Origin: Myxococcota bacterium
Lineage (GTDB): Bacteria; Myxococcota_A; Polyangia; Polyangiales; Polyangiaceae
DNA: 64,000 nt
NCBI GenBank assembly: GCA_963169915.1
Contig: CAUJEM010000075.1
Span: 1 to 64,000, forward strand
Reading direction: 5' to 3'
Numbering within the stretch: the stretch's first letter is position 1; the number at the start of each line of letters is the position of its first letter. The notes below the pieces were generated by a model that saw only the letters and a program-made list of their open reading frames with translations, did not search any database and was not told the DNA's origin. Below, piece after piece: positions 20,323 through 35,482 of this stretch. Made by a program: the position numbers and the translations under genes.

Positions 20323-20380
20323 TTGCGAATCTGTGCCCAACGGCTTTGGGCGCAGCGCTTCATCCTCCGAAGGGTCTCCC

Positions 20381-28779
<8,399 letters not shown>

Positions 28780-28924: not shown

Positions 28925-29770
28925 ATGACCACGGCGAGCGGCAAGGTAGTGATCGTCACCGGCGCAGGCAACGGCATCGGGCGCGCGACGGCGCTGCTCT
29001 TTGCGCGCGAGGGGGCCAAGGTGCTCGTCAATGACACCGGGGTCGCGCGGGACGGCACGGGCGGAGACGCCAGCATCGCCGAACGGGTGGTGGAGGAGAT
29101 CCGCGCGGCAGGCGGGACGGCCACCGCCAACCACGACTCGGTCGCCACCGCCGACGGCGCCAGGGCCATCGTCGCGGCCGCCGTCCAGGCTTACGGGCGG
29201 CTCGACACGCTCATCAACAACGCGGGGATCTTGCGCGACAAGACGCTCGCCAACCTGTCCGAGGCCATGTGGGACGCCGTCATCGACGTCCCTCTGAAGG
29301 GGAGCTTTCTGTGCACTCAGGCCGCCGCCGCCAGGATGCGCGCTCAGGGCGAGGGCGGGCGGATCGTCAACACCACGAGCGTCTCCGGCTTGCTCGGCAG
29401 CTTTGGCCAAAGCAACACCTCCGCCGCCGAGGCGGGGATTTACGGGCTGACCCGGACCTGCTCCATCGAGCTGCAGCGGTATGCCATCACCGTCAACGCC
29501 GTCGCCCCCCTCGCCAAGACGCGCATGACCGAAGATCTGCCCATGTTTCAGAAGCTGGGCAGCATGACGCCGGAGCACGTGGCGCCGGCACACCTCTTCT
29601 TCGGGACGGACCTCTGTGGCGACCGCAGCGGCTTCGTGCTGGCCGTCGCCGGCGCAAAGCTGAGCCTTTACAAGGTGGTGGAGACCCTCGGCCGCTACAA
29701 GGAGGCGGGGGACGGCGTCTGGGCGGCCGAGGAGATCGCGCAACACTGGGACTCCATCGCGCGCGGCTGA
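28925..29770 (+). CDS. Short-chain dehydrogenase/reductase homologue lacking catalytic Tyr and Lys
   Basis: 281 residues. The NAD(P) site TGAGNGIG, the NNAG strand and the following sequence (VLVNDTGVARDGTGG) place it in the HSD17B4/multifunctional-enzyme-2 type SDR group. In that group the catalytic segment reads GQxNYSAAKxGL; here it reads FGQSNTSAAEAGI, so Tyr is Thr and Lys is Glu. The Ser (TTSVSG) remains. Loss of both residues predicts no ordinary oxidoreductase activity, although NAD(P) binding may persist. It could serve as a structural or regulatory subunit. The neighbours (MopE operon and a TonB-like gene) give no clue. Start ATG 28925 has no Shine-Dalgarno. Confidence 0.92.
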   Translation: MTTASGKVVIVTGAGNGIGRATALLFAREGAKVLVNDTGVARDGTGGDASIAERVVEEIRAAGGTATANHDSVATADGARAIVAAAVQAYGRLDTLINNAGILRDKTLANLSEAMWDAVIDVPLKGSFLCTQAAAARMRAQGEGGRIVNTTSVSGLLGSFGQSNTSAAEAGIYGLTRTCSIELQRYAITVNAVAPLAKTRMTEDLPMFQKLGSMTPEHVAPAHLFFGTDLCGDRSGFVLAVAGAKLSLYKVVETLGRYKEAGDGVWAAEEIAQHWDSIARG

Positions 29771-29849: not shown

Positions 29850-31613
29850 ATGCGTCGCGACACCTCCATCCCCCTCTTTCTCTGGATCGCGACGGCGATC
29901 GTCGCGCACCTCTTGGGGGGTGGTGGGGTGGACCGCGCGTCGCAGGCCATGGAAGAGCGCATCGACGTCCGGCGCTTCGCGCTCGCCGTGCGGCAGCAAG
30001 TCCGTGGCGAGGGCGAGGGCTTCGAGGTCTCCCTGGTCGAGCAAGACGCGCCGCTCTCACCGAGCCCCACACCTCCCGCCACCGCGACGCCAAGCCCTAC
30101 GGAGAGCCAAGAGCCCACCGAGCCCACTGAGCCCGAGGCTGCCCCCGAGCCCAAAGCGCCACGGACCATACCAGAGCCACCAGCGCCAGCGCCGCCCCCC
30201 CCTCCGCCGCCTCCGCCAGCGGCGACGCAGCCTCCACCGGCTCCTCCCGCGGCACCCACACCAACCGTAGAGCTGCCCCCGGCCAAGCCTCAGGGGCGCA
30301 TCGCGGTCAAGCAGCACGTCGAAGACGAGCAGCAGCCGGACAACCCCAACGCGACGCACATCGCCGATCAAGCCAACCACGTCAAGGAGGAGACCCGCGC
30401 TCGGATCACGGCCAATGACGCCAACGACCCCAAGCCCACCCCGGGCAGCGCGCCCACCGGTCCCCAGGAGGCCCCCGGCAACGCGGAGGACTCTCGCGTA
30501 GCCTCCGCGGAGGAGCGCCGCGGCGCCGAAGAGGCCACCGCGAGCCAGGGAGAGTCCCCGCGAGCCCCAGCGCCGCCGCGTGCCGCTGCACGCTCCGAGA
30601 GCCAGCGCCCGAGCGAGCCAGGCGCTCACGGCGCCCAAGACGGCAGCGAAACCGCACCGCGCCCCGGCTCCACCGGGGCCGAGCAGAGCGTCAGCGCGCG
30701 CGCCAGGCGTGAGGCCCTGGACAAGACCGCCGAGACGGTCAACACCGAGCAAGGCACCAGCGTGGTGGCGGCGGCCCGCGAAGGGCAGCAGGGCCAGCGG
30801 GCGCGGCGTGCCCGCAAGAAGCGACTGCCTCCCCCGAAGGGCCGCCCTGACGCGCTCGGGCTGCTCGGGCTCGGAGCCTCGGGGACCAGCCTGGGAGGCA
30901 TGAACCTCAACCTCTCCCCGCGCGCGGCCCTCTCCAGCATCGGGCGCGATCAGCTCGAGCGCGAGCGCCGCTCGGACACCGAGCGCCGCAAGAGCGCGCA
31001 CCGTGGGTCGTGGAAGCCGGTGGGCCTCGAGAAGTGGCGCGCCGCCATCGAGAACTACGTCGCCAGCGTCAAGCCGGGCAATCAGACGGCGCTCAACACC
31101 GCGAGGGTGCCGTTCGCCAGCTACCTCAACGACATCCACCAGCGGCTCCACCCCCTCTTCGCGGACTCGTTCCTCGACTCCCTCGACGCGCTGCCTGCCT
31201 CACACCCACTCAATCAGCCCGAGCTTCGCACCAACGTGGAGATCGTGGTGTCGCGGGAGGACGGCAGGCTCGTCAAGCTGGGCGTCACCCGCGCCAGCGG
31301 CGTCACGGCCTTCGACGTCGCGGCGCTCGAAGCGGTCTCACGGGCGGCGCCCTTCGGCGCTCCCCCGGCGGCCATCGTCTCCCCGGACGGCAACGTCTAC
31401 CTGCACTGGGAGTTCTACCGAGACCGCAACTACGCTTGCTCCACGTATTTCGCGCGTCCCTTCCTGCTCAAGCTGCCGCCGCGCAGCGTCCCCCCCAAGG
31501 TCTCTCCCCCCGCTGATACACCGCGGGACTCGGAGACCACCACCACGGGAGCTCGCGAGCGCCCCCGCTCGCCGCGGACCGGGGTACGCTCGGGCACGCC
31601 GCCACGCGGCTGA
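29850..31613 (+). CDS. TonB-like energy-transducer protein with Pro/Ala-rich linker
   Basis: 587 residues. A single N-terminal membrane anchor (SIPLFLWIATAIVAHLLGG), then a ~350-residue linker rich in Pro, Glu and Ala including a run of ten prolines, and a C-terminal globular domain (~residue 440-560) with the TonB-family pattern LRTNVEIVVSREDGRLVKLG, then FDVAALEAVSRAAPFGAPP. TonB proteins carry inner-membrane motive-force energy across the periplasm to outer-membrane receptors. No exbB/exbD or receptor gene is adjacent, and the linker is unusually long. Other TonB-family uses (e.g. gliding-motility-associated) are possible. Confidence 0.82.
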   Translation: MRRDTSIPLFLWIATAIVAHLLGGGGVDRASQAMEERIDVRRFALAVRQQVRGEGEGFEVSLVEQDAPLSPSPTPPATATPSPTESQEPTEPTEPEAAPEPKAPRTIPEPPAPAPPPPPPPPPAATQPPPAPPAAPTPTVELPPAKPQGRIAVKQHVEDEQQPDNPNATHIADQANHVKEETRARITANDANDPKPTPGSAPTGPQEAPGNAEDSRVASAEERRGAEEATASQGESPRAPAPPRAAARSESQRPSEPGAHGAQDGSETAPRPGSTGAEQSVSARARREALDKTAETVNTEQGTSVVAAAREGQQGQRARRARKKRLPPPKGRPDALGLLGLGASGTSLGGMNLNLSPRAALSSIGRDQLERERRSDTERRKSAHRGSWKPVGLEKWRAAIENYVASVKPGNQTALNTARVPFASYLNDIHQRLHPLFADSFLDSLDALPASHPLNQPELRTNVEIVVSREDGRLVKLGVTRASGVTAFDVAALEAVSRAAPFGAPPAAIVSPDGNVYLHWEFYRDRNYACSTYFARPFLLKLPPRSVPPKVSPPADTPRDSETTTTGARERPRSPRTGVRSGTPPRG

Positions 31614-31660: not shown

Positions 31661-32707
31661 TTGAACGTCACGCCCTCCACCGCCTCGCCCCCGCTCGGCG
31701 CCCCTGGCCTGCGTGAGCCCGCTGGGGCGCTGCTTGGCCTCGGCCTCGGCTTGGCGCTGCTCGCTACCCTGCTCAGCCGGGCGCTCATCCCCGCGCTGCG
31801 CGGCCTCCGGACGGGGTTGACCCCCATCATCGACGCCATCACGACGCTGTCGAGCTTCACCTCCGCGCTCGGCTTGGTGCTGCTCGGCGCCTACTGCGTC
31901 AAGACGTTGCTGCAGCTCTTGTCGAGCGCGCAGCTCCCCGCGGGCTTTCGCTTGGCCTTGGTGCCCCTCGGCACGGGTGCTTGCACGCTGGTCTTCTTGT
32001 CTCCCTTCACCCAGCTCGACACCCTGGTGATCGCCGCCTTGGCCCTCACCACGGCGCTGCTGCTGCTCGCCACCGCTCCTCCGCTGCTCGCGCGCGCGGC
32101 GACGCGCGGGGTGGGCTTGGCGCTCGCGCTCACGGCCCTGAGCGGCGTCGTCGCGCTGACCTCCCGGGGGCTCGCGCTGCGCGCCAGTGAGGCGGCGCTG
32201 CCGGGGCTCTTCGAGCGAGCGCGGCTCCTCGCGACCGCCGCCTTCGCGCTCGACGTCGTCGCCGTCGTCGTGGCTGCCGCCTGGCTGGCGGCGCCGCGGT
32301 GGCGGCTGCTCGCGCTCGCCGCACCCCTGACGCTCCTGACGGCGCTCGGGCTCACGCGAGCGGTCACGGCGGGCGGCCTCGACAGCGCCTCCCTGGGCGC
32401 GGTCTTGGTCCGCCGCGCCGTCCTCGGCCTGGCGCGGCACCCGGCGCCGCTCACGGGCCTCCCGCTCCGCATCACCCTGGAGGTGGCCACCGTCCTCCTC
32501 TGCGGCGCGCTCGTGGGCCTGCCGGGCGCGCGCCGTGAGCAGCGCGCCGCGCGCGGCGCCCTCGCCTTCGCGCTGCTCAGCCACGGCGCCCTGGACATCC
32601 CGTTCATGGCCCTGTGCGGCGTCGTCGCGATGACCCTCGCCACCGTGGCGGCGCTCCAGGCGCCCCGTTCCAACCCTCGGCGCCTCACCCCCACGGCCTC
32701 CGCCTGA
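31661..32707 (+). CDS. Multi-pass membrane protein of unknown function
   Basis: 348 residues from TTG 31661, supported by GGAG 6 nt upstream. Around eight or nine hydrophobic segments, e.g. ALLGLGLGLALLATLLS and TSALGLVLLGAYCVKTLL, with few charged residues. No family motif I recognise. Found 47 bp after the TonB-like gene on the same strand, and before a cytochrome c gene with its own promoter-like hexamer. The Leu/Ala-rich composition makes function prediction unsafe. Confidence 0.72.
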   Translation: MNVTPSTASPPLGAPGLREPAGALLGLGLGLALLATLLSRALIPALRGLRTGLTPIIDAITTLSSFTSALGLVLLGAYCVKTLLQLLSSAQLPAGFRLALVPLGTGACTLVFLSPFTQLDTLVIAALALTTALLLLATAPPLLARAATRGVGLALALTALSGVVALTSRGLALRASEAALPGLFERARLLATAAFALDVVAVVVAAAWLAAPRWRLLALAAPLTLLTALGLTRAVTAGGLDSASLGAVLVRRAVLGLARHPAPLTGLPLRITLEVATVLLCGALVGLPGARREQRAARGALAFALLSHGALDIPFMALCGVVAMTLATVAALQAPRSNPRRLTPTASA

Positions 32708-32777: not shown

Positions 32778-33113
32778 GTGCGCGCATCGTCTCTGCTGCT
32801 CCCCACCCTCGCGCTGCTCGCCGGCTGCAACGCACCACCTCGCACCCAGCTGCAGCGCGCCGAGAGCGCCTACCTCCGCGCCTGCTCCGGCTGCCATGGA
32901 CCACGGGGCGACACGGGGGCGGCCGCGGCCGCGCGCCTGGCGCGCACCCCCGCGGACCTCTCCGACCGCGCCCTGCAGGCGCGCCTGAGCGACGAGGAGC
33001 TGAAGCACGTCATCCGTCACGGCCGAGGCGCCATGCCGCCGCACGGCGCCAACCTCTCCGAGCAGGACGTGGAGCTGATCGTGCTCTGGGTGCGCACCCT
33101 ACCGCTGCGCTAG
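32778..33113 (+). CDS. Lipoprotein c-type cytochrome, single heme
   Basis: 111 residues from GTG 32778. Signal peptide with lipobox LLAGC (Cys17), then CSGCH at residues 36-40, the heme c attachment motif (CxxCH), and AMPPHG supplying the axial Met at ~89. A class I mono-heme cytochrome anchored to a membrane by lipid; it would pass electrons to a terminal oxidase or other acceptor. It converges on a small membrane-protein gene and heme o synthase, consistent with a respiratory role. Its maturation needs the Ccm system, of which only ccmB is in this window. Confidence 0.9.
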   Translation: MRASSLLLPTLALLAGCNAPPRTQLQRAESAYLRACSGCHGPRGDTGAAAAARLARTPADLSDRALQARLSDEELKHVIRHGRGAMPPHGANLSEQDVELIVLWVRTLPLR

Positions 33114-33245: not shown

Positions 33246-34166
33246 TCAGCTCGCCACCCACACGAGCGCGCCCATGACCAGCACCAGGTGAGGCATGGAG
33301 GCGAAGAAGAGCGAGCGCGCCCAGCGGTCCCCCGCGCTCCCCTCGAGCCCGAACAGGCTGAAGGCGAAGAAGCCGGCGCCGCTGGCGAGCGCGAGGGACA
33401 GGTAGGCGTCGTGCCCGATGCCGGCCGCGAGCGGCGCGAGGCTGGCCGCGACGAGCAGCAGCGAATAAACAATGATCTCCGCCTTGGTCTGCGCGACCCC
33501 GCGCACCGCCGGCAGGACGCGAATCCCCGCCTTTTCGTACTCTCGCTGCCGGAAGAGCGTGATGGCCAAAAAATGCGGGAGCTGCCACACGAACATCAGC
33601 ACGAAGAGCGCCACCGCGCCGGCGCCGATGCTGCCCGTCATGGCGACCCAGCCGATGACGGGGGGCAGCGCGCCCGGCACGGCGCCCACCTGCAGCGCCA
33701 GCGGCGTCACCCGCTTGAGCGGTGTGTACGCCAGCACGTAGCTGGTGAGCGCCACGGCGGCGACCAGCCCCGTGAGCCAGTCCAGCAGGAAAGACTCGAT
33801 GAGCAGCCCCACGACGCCCGTGAGCACCCCGAACACCCAAGCCGCGCGCGGGCTGATGCGCCCCGAAGGAATGGGGCGCCCCCGGGTGCGCTCCATCACG
33901 GCGTCCCCGTTGCGCTCGATGTACATGTTCAGGCTGTTGGCGGAGGCCACCACCAGCGTGGTCCCCAGCATGACCCACCCGAAGCGGCGCCAATCGACCG
34001 CGCCCGGGGCCGCGATGGCGCCAGCGGCGGTGGTGATCATCACCAGCCGCGTCACCCCCGGCTTCGTGAGCTCCGCGTAGGCGCGCAAGACCCCGCCCTT
34101 GGCCGGTGGGCTGCCGCTGGGGCTCGGGGGTGTCGAGGGAGCTGAGGCGAGGGCTTCGTCGGACAT
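33246..34166 (-). CDS. ctaB: Protoheme IX farnesyltransferase (heme o synthase)
   Basis: 306 residues from ATG 34166 (MSDEALAS); an in-frame ATG at 34223 would add 19 residues that are not conserved. It attaches a farnesyl group to heme b to give heme o, for aa3/bo-type oxidases. UbiA-superfamily motifs: ASANSLNMYIERNGDAVMERT followed by RGRPIPSG, and YTPLKR with a second conserved loop. About eight membrane helices. A 33-residue membrane protein follows after 3 nt; cytochrome oxidase subunits are not in the window. Confidence 0.94.
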   Translation of the reverse strand: MSDEALASAPSTPPSPSGSPPAKGGVLRAYAELTKPGVTRLVMITTAAGAIAAPGAVDWRRFGWVMLGTTLVVASANSLNMYIERNGDAVMERTRGRPIPSGRISPRAAWVFGVLTGVVGLLIESFLLDWLTGLVAAVALTSYVLAYTPLKRVTPLALQVGAVPGALPPVIGWVAMTGSIGAGAVALFVLMFVWQLPHFLAITLFRQREYEKAGIRVLPAVRGVAQTKAEIIVYSLLLVAASLAPLAAGIGHDAYLSLALASGAGFFAFSLFGLEGSAGDRWARSLFFASMPHLVLVMGALVWVAS

Positions 34167-34279
34167 GGCTGCCGGATGGCTGCGCAGGCCCGAGCTCCCC
34201 GAGGGGTGCCCAGCCAGCGCCATGTCCTCCCCCTAGCGCACGGCGGGCCCTTCGACCAGGGGGCGCGACCGCGCTGGCG

Positions 34280-35482
34280 TCAAGCCCGCTCGGCGTCGAG
34301 CACGGCGGCGCGCAGCGCCGTCAGCGCCTCGTCGATTTGCGACTCCGACGCCGCATAGCTGTAGCGGATGTGACCGGGGGCACCGAAGGGCTCCCCCGCC
34401 ACGGCGGCGATCCCACAGACGTCGAGCTGCCACAGGCTGACGTCCGCCGCGCTGGCGAGCAGCTTGTCCCCGTGGCGGATACCGTAGAGCCCCTCCACGT
34501 TGGGCAGCGCGTAGAAGGCGCCGCGGGGCATGTCGCAGCTCACCCCTGGGATGGCGTTCAGGCCCTCCACCATGCGCCGTCGCCGCGCGGCGAACAGCTC
34601 CCGCATCCGGTGCACCTCGTCGCGCGGACCGACGAGCGCGGCCGCCGCCGCCGCCTGCGCCACGGCCGTGGGGTTGGTGGTGGATTGCCCTTGCACCTTG
34701 GCGATCTGCTTGGCGAGCGCCGCAGAGCTGATGGACCAGCCGATGCGCCAGCCCGTCATGGCATAGGTCTTACTGACGCCGTCCACGATGACGAGCCGCT
34801 CCCCCAGCTCCGGCGCCACCTTGGCGAGCGAGTGGTGCTCGAAGCCGTCGTAGCAGAGCTCGCCGTAGATCTCGTCGGCGATGACGAAGCAGTCGTGCCC
34901 CAGCAGCACCTCCGCCAGCGCGCGCAGCTCCTCCGCCGAGTACGCGGCCCCCGAGGGGTTGGACGGCGTGCACAGGATGATGGCCTTCGTTCGCGGCGTG
35001 AGCGCCGCCCGCAGCGCCTCGGCGGACAGGCGCCAGCCGTCTTGCGCGCGCGTCTCCACGATCTTCGGGGTGGCTCCGAACAGGCGCACCTGCTCGGGGT
35101 AGCTCACCCAGTAGGGCGCTGGGATGATGACCTCGTCACCCGCCTCGAACAAAGCCAGCGCCAGGTTGAAGAGGACGTGCTTGGCCCCGACCCCGACGCA
35201 CACCCTGTCCGGGCTGGGCGTCCACCCTCGGTCCCTCGCCGTGGCCTCGCACACCGCGGCGCGCAGCTCCGGCGTGCCCACCACGTTGGTGTAGTGGGAG
35301 CTCTTGGCGACCGCCTCCCGCGCGGCCTGCTGCACGTACTCTGGGGTAGGAAAATCTGGCTCGCCCACCCCAAAGCCATAGATTTTCCGGCCGGCCGCTC
35401 GCAGCTCGGCCGCCTTGGCGGTCATGGCGAGGGTGGCGCTGGGGGCGACGGCGTCGAGGCGCTGGGCAAAGGCGTGGGACAT
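34280..35482 (-). CDS. aspC: Pyridoxal-phosphate aminotransferase, aspartate aminotransferase class I-beta
   Basis: 400 residues. VGEPDFPTPEYVQQAA near the N-terminus, YWVSYPEQVRLFGA, CTPSNPSGAAYS (PLP phosphate/Asn), DEIYGELCYDG (Asp for the pyridine N), and the PLP lysine within VDGVSKTYAMTGWRIGW. This is the Thermus/Bacillus-type aspartate (or aspartate/prephenate) aminotransferase. It interconverts aspartate/oxaloacetate with glutamate/2-oxoglutarate; substrate range is not certain. GGGAG lies about 13 nt before the ATG. It faces the divergent 35769 gene across 286 bp. Confidence 0.93.
   Translation of the reverse strand: MSHAFAQRLDAVAPSATLAMTAKAAELRAAGRKIYGFGVGEPDFPTPEYVQQAAREAVAKSSHYTNVVGTPELRAAVCEATARDRGWTPSPDRVCVGVGAKHVLFNLALALFEAGDEVIIPAPYWVSYPEQVRLFGATPKIVETRAQDGWRLSAEALRAALTPRTKAIILCTPSNPSGAAYSAEELRALAEVLLGHDCFVIADEIYGELCYDGFEHHSLAKVAPELGERLVIVDGVSKTYAMTGWRIGWSISSAALAKQIAKVQGQSTTNPTAVAQAAAAAALVGPRDEVHRMRELFAARRRRMVEGLNAIPGVSCDMPRGAFYALPNVEGLYGIRHGDKLLASAADVSLWQLDVCGIAAVAGEPFGAPGHIRYSYAASESQIDEALTALRAAVLDAERA

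Follow-up and report, generated by a model that had tools for sequence, protein, structure and literature searches.

A conserved MFE-2-type SDR with a replaced catalytic dyad as a probable, recurrently arising pseudoenzyme

What keeps the gene of an SDR oxidoreductase intact when the residues that should carry out its chemistry have been replaced? The window analysed here, a stretch of 64,000 nucleotides from a Myxococcota bacterium, raises this question with a single open reading frame, in which Thr and Glu occupy the places of the catalytic Tyr and Lys. The explanation we consider best, with a probability of roughly 0.6, is that the gene encodes a catalytically dead NAD-type SDR, a predicted nucleotide-binding dimer that is kept for a non-catalytic role and that represents one case of a recurrently arising pseudoenzyme. 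What makes this case interesting lies beyond the window protein itself, in a conserved SDR that appears to have become catalytically dead repeatedly.

Fold and active site of the window protein

The reading frame begins with an ATG at 28925, ends with a TGA at 29768-29770 and encodes 281 aa, with a GC content of 65/52/92% at codon positions 1/2/3, as expected of genuine coding sequence where genomic GC is high. The PF00106 (adh_short) profile scores 145.3 bits on the product, against a cut-off of 26.6, and together with the T12GxxxGIG19 motif this places the protein within the SDR fold. An AlphaFold2 model (mean pLDDT 95.1) finds its closest fold match in 1gz6, with a TM of 0.93 and 40% identity over 279 columns, C-terminal subdomain included, and thereby supports the HSD17B4-type assignment made in an earlier, sequence-only reading of this DNA. 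Both the fold and the C-terminal dimerisation subdomain are those of an MFE-2-type protein; the window SDR stands alone, neither fused to nor close to a hydratase 2 or SCP2 domain. Its best NCBIfam match is PRK07791/NF005861, ‘SDR family oxidoreductase’, over nearly the full length (E 8e-81). Since the window SDR (271.7 bits) and a Tyr/Lys orthologue, L007 (267.9 bits), both score under the model cut-off of 373, NF005861 describes a related group of which the window SDR is not a member. The features of the gene are as follows.

28925..29770, + strand: predicted SDR pseudoenzyme, 281 aa, with the MFE-2/HSD17B4-type (3R)-hydroxyacyl-CoA dehydrogenase fold (profile, alignment, model)
28958..28981, + strand: dinucleotide-binding motif T12-G-x3-G-I-G19, intact
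29033..29035, + strand: Asp37 after strand 2, intact, with an implied preference for NAD over NADP
29216..29227, + strand: N98-N-A-G101 motif, intact
29291..29293, + strand: Pro (CCT) at the His123 position, where all 81 of 81 Tyr/Lys orthologues have His
29378..29380, + strand: Ser152, the catalytic Ser position, intact
29417..29419, + strand: catalytic Tyr position, here Thr165 (ACC)
29429..29431, + strand: catalytic Lys position, here Glu169 (GAG)
29468..29470, + strand: Glu182, kept in 81/81 Tyr/Lys and 25/25 other dyad-less proteins

The active-site motif, GQSNTSAAEAG, starts at residue 161. Alignment with phmmer to the PDB sequences 2et6, 3oml, 3qlj and 1gz6 pairs T165 and E169 with their Tyr and Lys without a gap, and in the model both residues lie at the start of helix 163-182, which together rule out a Tyr/Lys pair relocated elsewhere in the protein. 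The two replacements that the sequence-only reading had described are therefore real, the homologue alignment offering no alternative site, and the TGxxxGIG and NNAG motifs that it had called conserved are both intact. A third change had been overlooked: His123, invariant in the 81 Tyr/Lys orthologues compared, has become Pro. An active classical SDR combines Tyr-x3-Lys with Ser, of which only Ser152 is retained here, and a loss of catalytic residues within a conserved fold, as seen here, is what characterizes an SDR pseudoenzyme. Asp37 presumably directs the protein towards NAD rather than NADP, and the C-terminal tail is kept. In a study of human MFE-2, H123 is given as ‘above the catalytic triad’ and E181 appears among the bonds between the two monomers (PMC3538638); by our alignment, E181 corresponds to Glu182 of the window protein.

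An assembly or sequencing error could in principle produce such a picture, as the source is a draft of 4.19 Mb in 166 contigs and a second genome of the species was not found. We consider this very improbable. At least 95% of the Tyr/Lys set agree at 101 positions. The window protein differs at 8 of them, and 3 of these 8 fall among H123, S152, Y165 and K169 (hypergeometric P = 0.0013, the four sites having been chosen after H123 was seen). The codons for T165, E169 and P123 require at least four base changes within a frame that is intact, which makes a random error unlikely, and the same kind of loss is found in other genomes.

Recurrence of the loss among orthologues

We surveyed 108 genomes of the same family, with an orthologue threshold of E <= 1e-75 and the residues read in the best match per genome. 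An orthologue is present in 96 of the 108 genomes and in 59 of the 61 of good quality, with one match at this threshold in 95 of the 96 and two in G007. Tyr and Lys are both present in 77 genomes, while 19 have lost at least one of them and 16 have lost both; among the 59 good-quality genomes the losses number 10 and 7, respectively. Several of the losing genomes show a contamination of 6-9%. The replacements comprise 16 kinds of pair in 19 genomes (TE, SN, FD, FN, AQ, QL, VC, LC in two genomes, AE, HD, GA, LQ and FS in three for double losses; EK, FK and YS for single ones), so that no substitute dyad has been conserved. The idea that Thr/Glu marks a clade is likewise rejected: among the sampled orthologues this pair is confined to the window genome, and the only other sampled genome of the genus, G001, carries Tyr/Lys. 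This genus is one of three in which both states occur, the others containing G144 (lost) beside G143 and G047 (not lost), and G109 (lost) beside G045 and G108 (not lost). Six order-level genomes also have losses (G064, G065, G078, G083, G088 and G096). Most of the named relatives that sequence searches turned up are Polyangiaceae MAGs, Sorangium and Polyangium; the search for related loci took AAEAGIYG as one pattern, a possible source of bias, and the per-genome counts rest on a separate genome search.

The variety of replacements bears on the idea that the protein has acquired a changed chemistry, in which the cofactor or Ser152 would support a reaction free of Tyr and Lys, such as a hydration, an isomerisation or a lyase reaction. 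The window protein keeps Ser152 and its C-terminal tail, which speaks for this idea. Against it, almost every lineage has its own replacements, and of the 25 other dyad-less proteins just 17 have Ser152 and 8 have H123. This pattern shows no new active site that the proteins would have in common, and we regard a changed chemistry as improbable.

The surroundings of the gene are partly shared between relatives. At the window locus, the SDR is followed by these genes.

29850..31613, + strand: TonB_2-type protein, conserved downstream neighbour of the SDR
31661..32707, + strand: 348-aa protein without a Pfam match, conserved third gene of the cluster
32778..33113, + strand: small cytochrome of the c type (Cytochrome_CBB3) that some relatives have conserved
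33246..34223, - strand: prenyltransferase of the UbiA family, which is conserved and anchors the locus downstream

A further gene, at about 34280-35482, is an aminotransferase by Pfam. The TonB_2 neighbour follows the SDR at 40 of 80 loci, 12 of them dyad-less (the window included) and 28 Tyr/Lys, a count in which some Tyr/Lys genes were retrieved twice and appear as two loci. It was not seen at 13 dyad-less loci, three of which have little downstream sequence. The neighbouring genes point to no pathway. Upstream of the SDR, at 20333-28779 on the + strand, lie two long MopE-repeat proteins of 1626 and 1189 aa with a 4-base overlap, the second with an FGE-sulfatase domain at its end. The genus-mate (L184), like several relatives, has in this place a divergent gene that reads, on inspection of the sequence, as a methionyl-tRNA synthetase.

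Whether the dyad was lost once or many times was addressed with two trees. The SDR gene tree was built from 128 of 144 distinct coding sequences, with the columns of S152, Y165 and K169 omitted; the exclusions were L096, L164, L075 (truncated), L120, L121 (distant) and a remainder below 43% identity. It needs 7 changes, 3 of them forced by well-supported branches, and the AU test does not reject a single dyad-less clade (p = 0.448). The genome tree was built from two genes, alaS and IF-2, in 30 hand-chosen genomes (17 losing, 13 not). It needs 9 changes, 5 of them forced by well-supported branches, and here a single clade of losing genomes is rejected (AU test, p = 0.000343). Two further markers were left out of the trees: rpoB, with no match in the window's genome, and ileS, with two classes of match. 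Against TIGR00392, the isoleucyl-tRNA synthetase scores either ~930-950 bits over its full length or ~580-650 bits over the first 630 positions, with a patchy distribution.

Taken together, the genome tree, the mixed genera and the shared locus favour several losses in place. An ancient dead paralogue followed by differential loss is compatible with the SDR gene tree, but the shared locus and the genome tree argue against it. For some lineages, notably those at order level, where the neighbours differ, ancient paralogy or transfer is possible.

Constraint after loss and the role that may remain

The earlier reading had also suggested that selection on the fold persists in the absence of the dyad, and the dyad-less relatives support this. 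Four pairs of dyad-less orthologues gave dN/dS values of 0.063 (L190/L191), 0.050 (L174/L175), 0.063 (L170/L174) and 0.055 (L170/L175); they are the measurable share of eight such pairs, come from two clades, and three of the four share members. These values, 0.05-0.06, fall within the range of the Tyr/Lys pairs, 0.006-0.082 in the 9 of 19 with a silent divergence below 5. Saturated pairs are omitted from both sets, 4 of 8 dyad-less and 10 of 19 Tyr/Lys (t over 5), and so are all four pairs that involve the window gene, whose silent sites are saturated even against its nearest relatives.

Constraint has nevertheless become weaker, or has changed, after the loss. At 99 conserved positions (dyad excluded), Tyr/Lys proteins show 0-12 departures, whereas the dyad-less proteins other than those of the window, L022, L149 and L162 show 15-34. 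The window protein departs at 6 of these positions and its Tyr/Lys genus-mate L007 at 4, and their terminal branches in the gene tree measure 0.43 and 0.42. Set against the numbers of most dyad-less proteins, those of the window gene suggest an early case, whereas the older ones appear remodelled yet still constrained. T12, G13, G17, G19, D37, A100, G101, E182, P195, T199 and T202 are each kept in 23-25 of the 25 other dyad-less proteins; residues kept less often are H123 (8), N99 (8), N98 (14), S152 (17), V153 (3) and S154 (8). In a post hoc reading, this would mean that the cofactor site survives on its adenosine/pyrophosphate side, as does the dimer contact, while the nicotinamide/substrate side decays. 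H123 is changed in 18 of 26 dyad-less rows against 0 of 102 Tyr/Lys rows, a link that comes down to 3 independent pairs on well-supported branches and is not significant.

The window genome also carries a second MFE-2-type SDR, a Tyr/Lys paralogue (G000:C124, 47%). Its reading frame measures ~300-380 aa in the window genome and its nearest kin, and ~800-1200 aa in most carrier genomes; near it lies a long Cys-rich MopE-like repeat protein (L185, G000:C124, 4003-6855, - strand). Across the survey this second SDR is rarer in dyad-lost genomes (6/19 vs 50/77, Fisher p = 0.010, kinship uncorrected), rather than commoner, and backup by a paralogue is therefore rejected as a general reason for the loss. 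Loss of the oxidation pathway is rejected as well, as thiolase (thiolase C) and MaoC domains are present in all 30 genomes tested, of which 17 are losing.

These distributions also bear on a recent inactivation, in which the enzyme would be unneeded in a small genome (4.19 Mb) and the gene would be drifting. Consistent with this, the change is private to the window genome, on a branch that cannot be dated, and dyad-lost genomes carry the second SDR less often. Nonetheless, the frame is intact with a GC3 of 92%, conserved positions beyond the active site have changed about as often as they have in the genus-mate with Tyr/Lys, other dyad-less lineages have diverged while keeping the gene at the low dN/dS given above, and the thiolase and MaoC domains persist in all 30 genomes tested. 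We consider a drifting gene rather unlikely.

A narrower version of our preferred explanation, and on its own an unlikely one, is that the window protein serves as the non-catalytic subunit of a heteromer beside an active SDR. The inter-monomer Glu182, a contact described in PMC3538638, is kept in every one of the 25 other dyad-less proteins, and the paralogue of the window genome could supply the active subunit. Against this, no second SDR was found among the six neighbouring proteins scanned at the window locus (MopE-repeat, TonB_2, unnamed, cytochrome c and UbiA proteins), and 13 of the 19 dyad-less genomes have no match to the second SDR at E <= 1e-90. That SDR cannot be the general partner, and an obligate heteromer with it is unlikely in general.

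The preferred explanation, a dead SDR kept for a non-catalytic role, can be set out as a model. The window SDR is the positional orthologue of a family-wide SDR of the NAD-dependent (3R)-hydroxyacyl-CoA dehydrogenase type. Its sequence shows that the Tyr/Lys proton relay and the adjacent His123 have been lost while its fold and nucleotide-binding half stayed intact. Comparison shows that other lineages lack these residues too, in many cases at the corresponding locus, with purifying selection persisting on the protein there. We infer that NAD(H) would still be bound and the dimer formed, and that hydride transfer would be impossible. What remains would be a non-catalytic role, for example that of a nucleotide-bound scaffold or a partner subunit, which is probably common to the Tyr/Lys orthologues and may have become the sole role in the losing lineages. 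Given the residues retained, it is likewise plausible, as the earlier reading had it, that the window protein may act as an NAD(P)-binding sensor or structural partner. More tentatively, and with the odds somewhat against it, the non-catalytic function could be the truly conserved one, with catalysis an option dropped at least five times in place and without duplication, leaving scaffolds or redox sensors.

The usual explanation of a pseudoenzyme is a duplication, after which the chemistry stays with one copy and the second is free to change. In the present family, catalytic death appears to have struck orthologues of a single gene several times, frequently at a single locus, and the gene is almost never deleted. 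This amounts to a natural experiment with matched live and dead versions, and knock-outs and swaps between them could uncover a hidden non-catalytic function. In the open-licence (PMC) literature we found no report of this SDR family as a pseudoenzyme.

Comparison with known systems

SDR relatives of the NmrA/HSCARG type are Rossmann proteins that sense NAD(P), binding the dinucleotide without dehydrogenase activity. They may offer a parallel to the window SDR from a different SDR branch. Another parallel is BbsC, the pseudoenzyme SDR subunit of the BbsCD heterotetramer of anaerobic toluene degradation (von Horsten et al. 2021, as cited in PMC10818641). Common to both is an SDR subunit without activity, which for the window SDR is a prediction from sequence. 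By gene order, the active partner of BbsC is encoded next to it, whereas the window SDR has no adjacent SDR and its loss recurs in orthologues of one gene.

The closest structural counterpart is MFE-2/HSD17B4 (1gz6 from rat, and 1zbq), with which the window SDR has in common the fold over its full length, the NAD motif, the Ser and the dimer Glu. It differs in that Tyr, Lys and His123 are replaced and in that it stands alone, with no hydratase or SCP2 domain. Two outgroup proteins, L081 and L093, carry a Tyr/Lys SDR inside long chains. A domain scan of L093 (236-3139, Planctomycetota, 968 aa) finds an SDR together with three repeats of SCP2 and a hydratase of the MaoC type. L093 is thus the bacterial equivalent of peroxisomal MFE-2, with its domains in a different order, and this chain ties the ancestral enzyme to MFE-2 chemistry.
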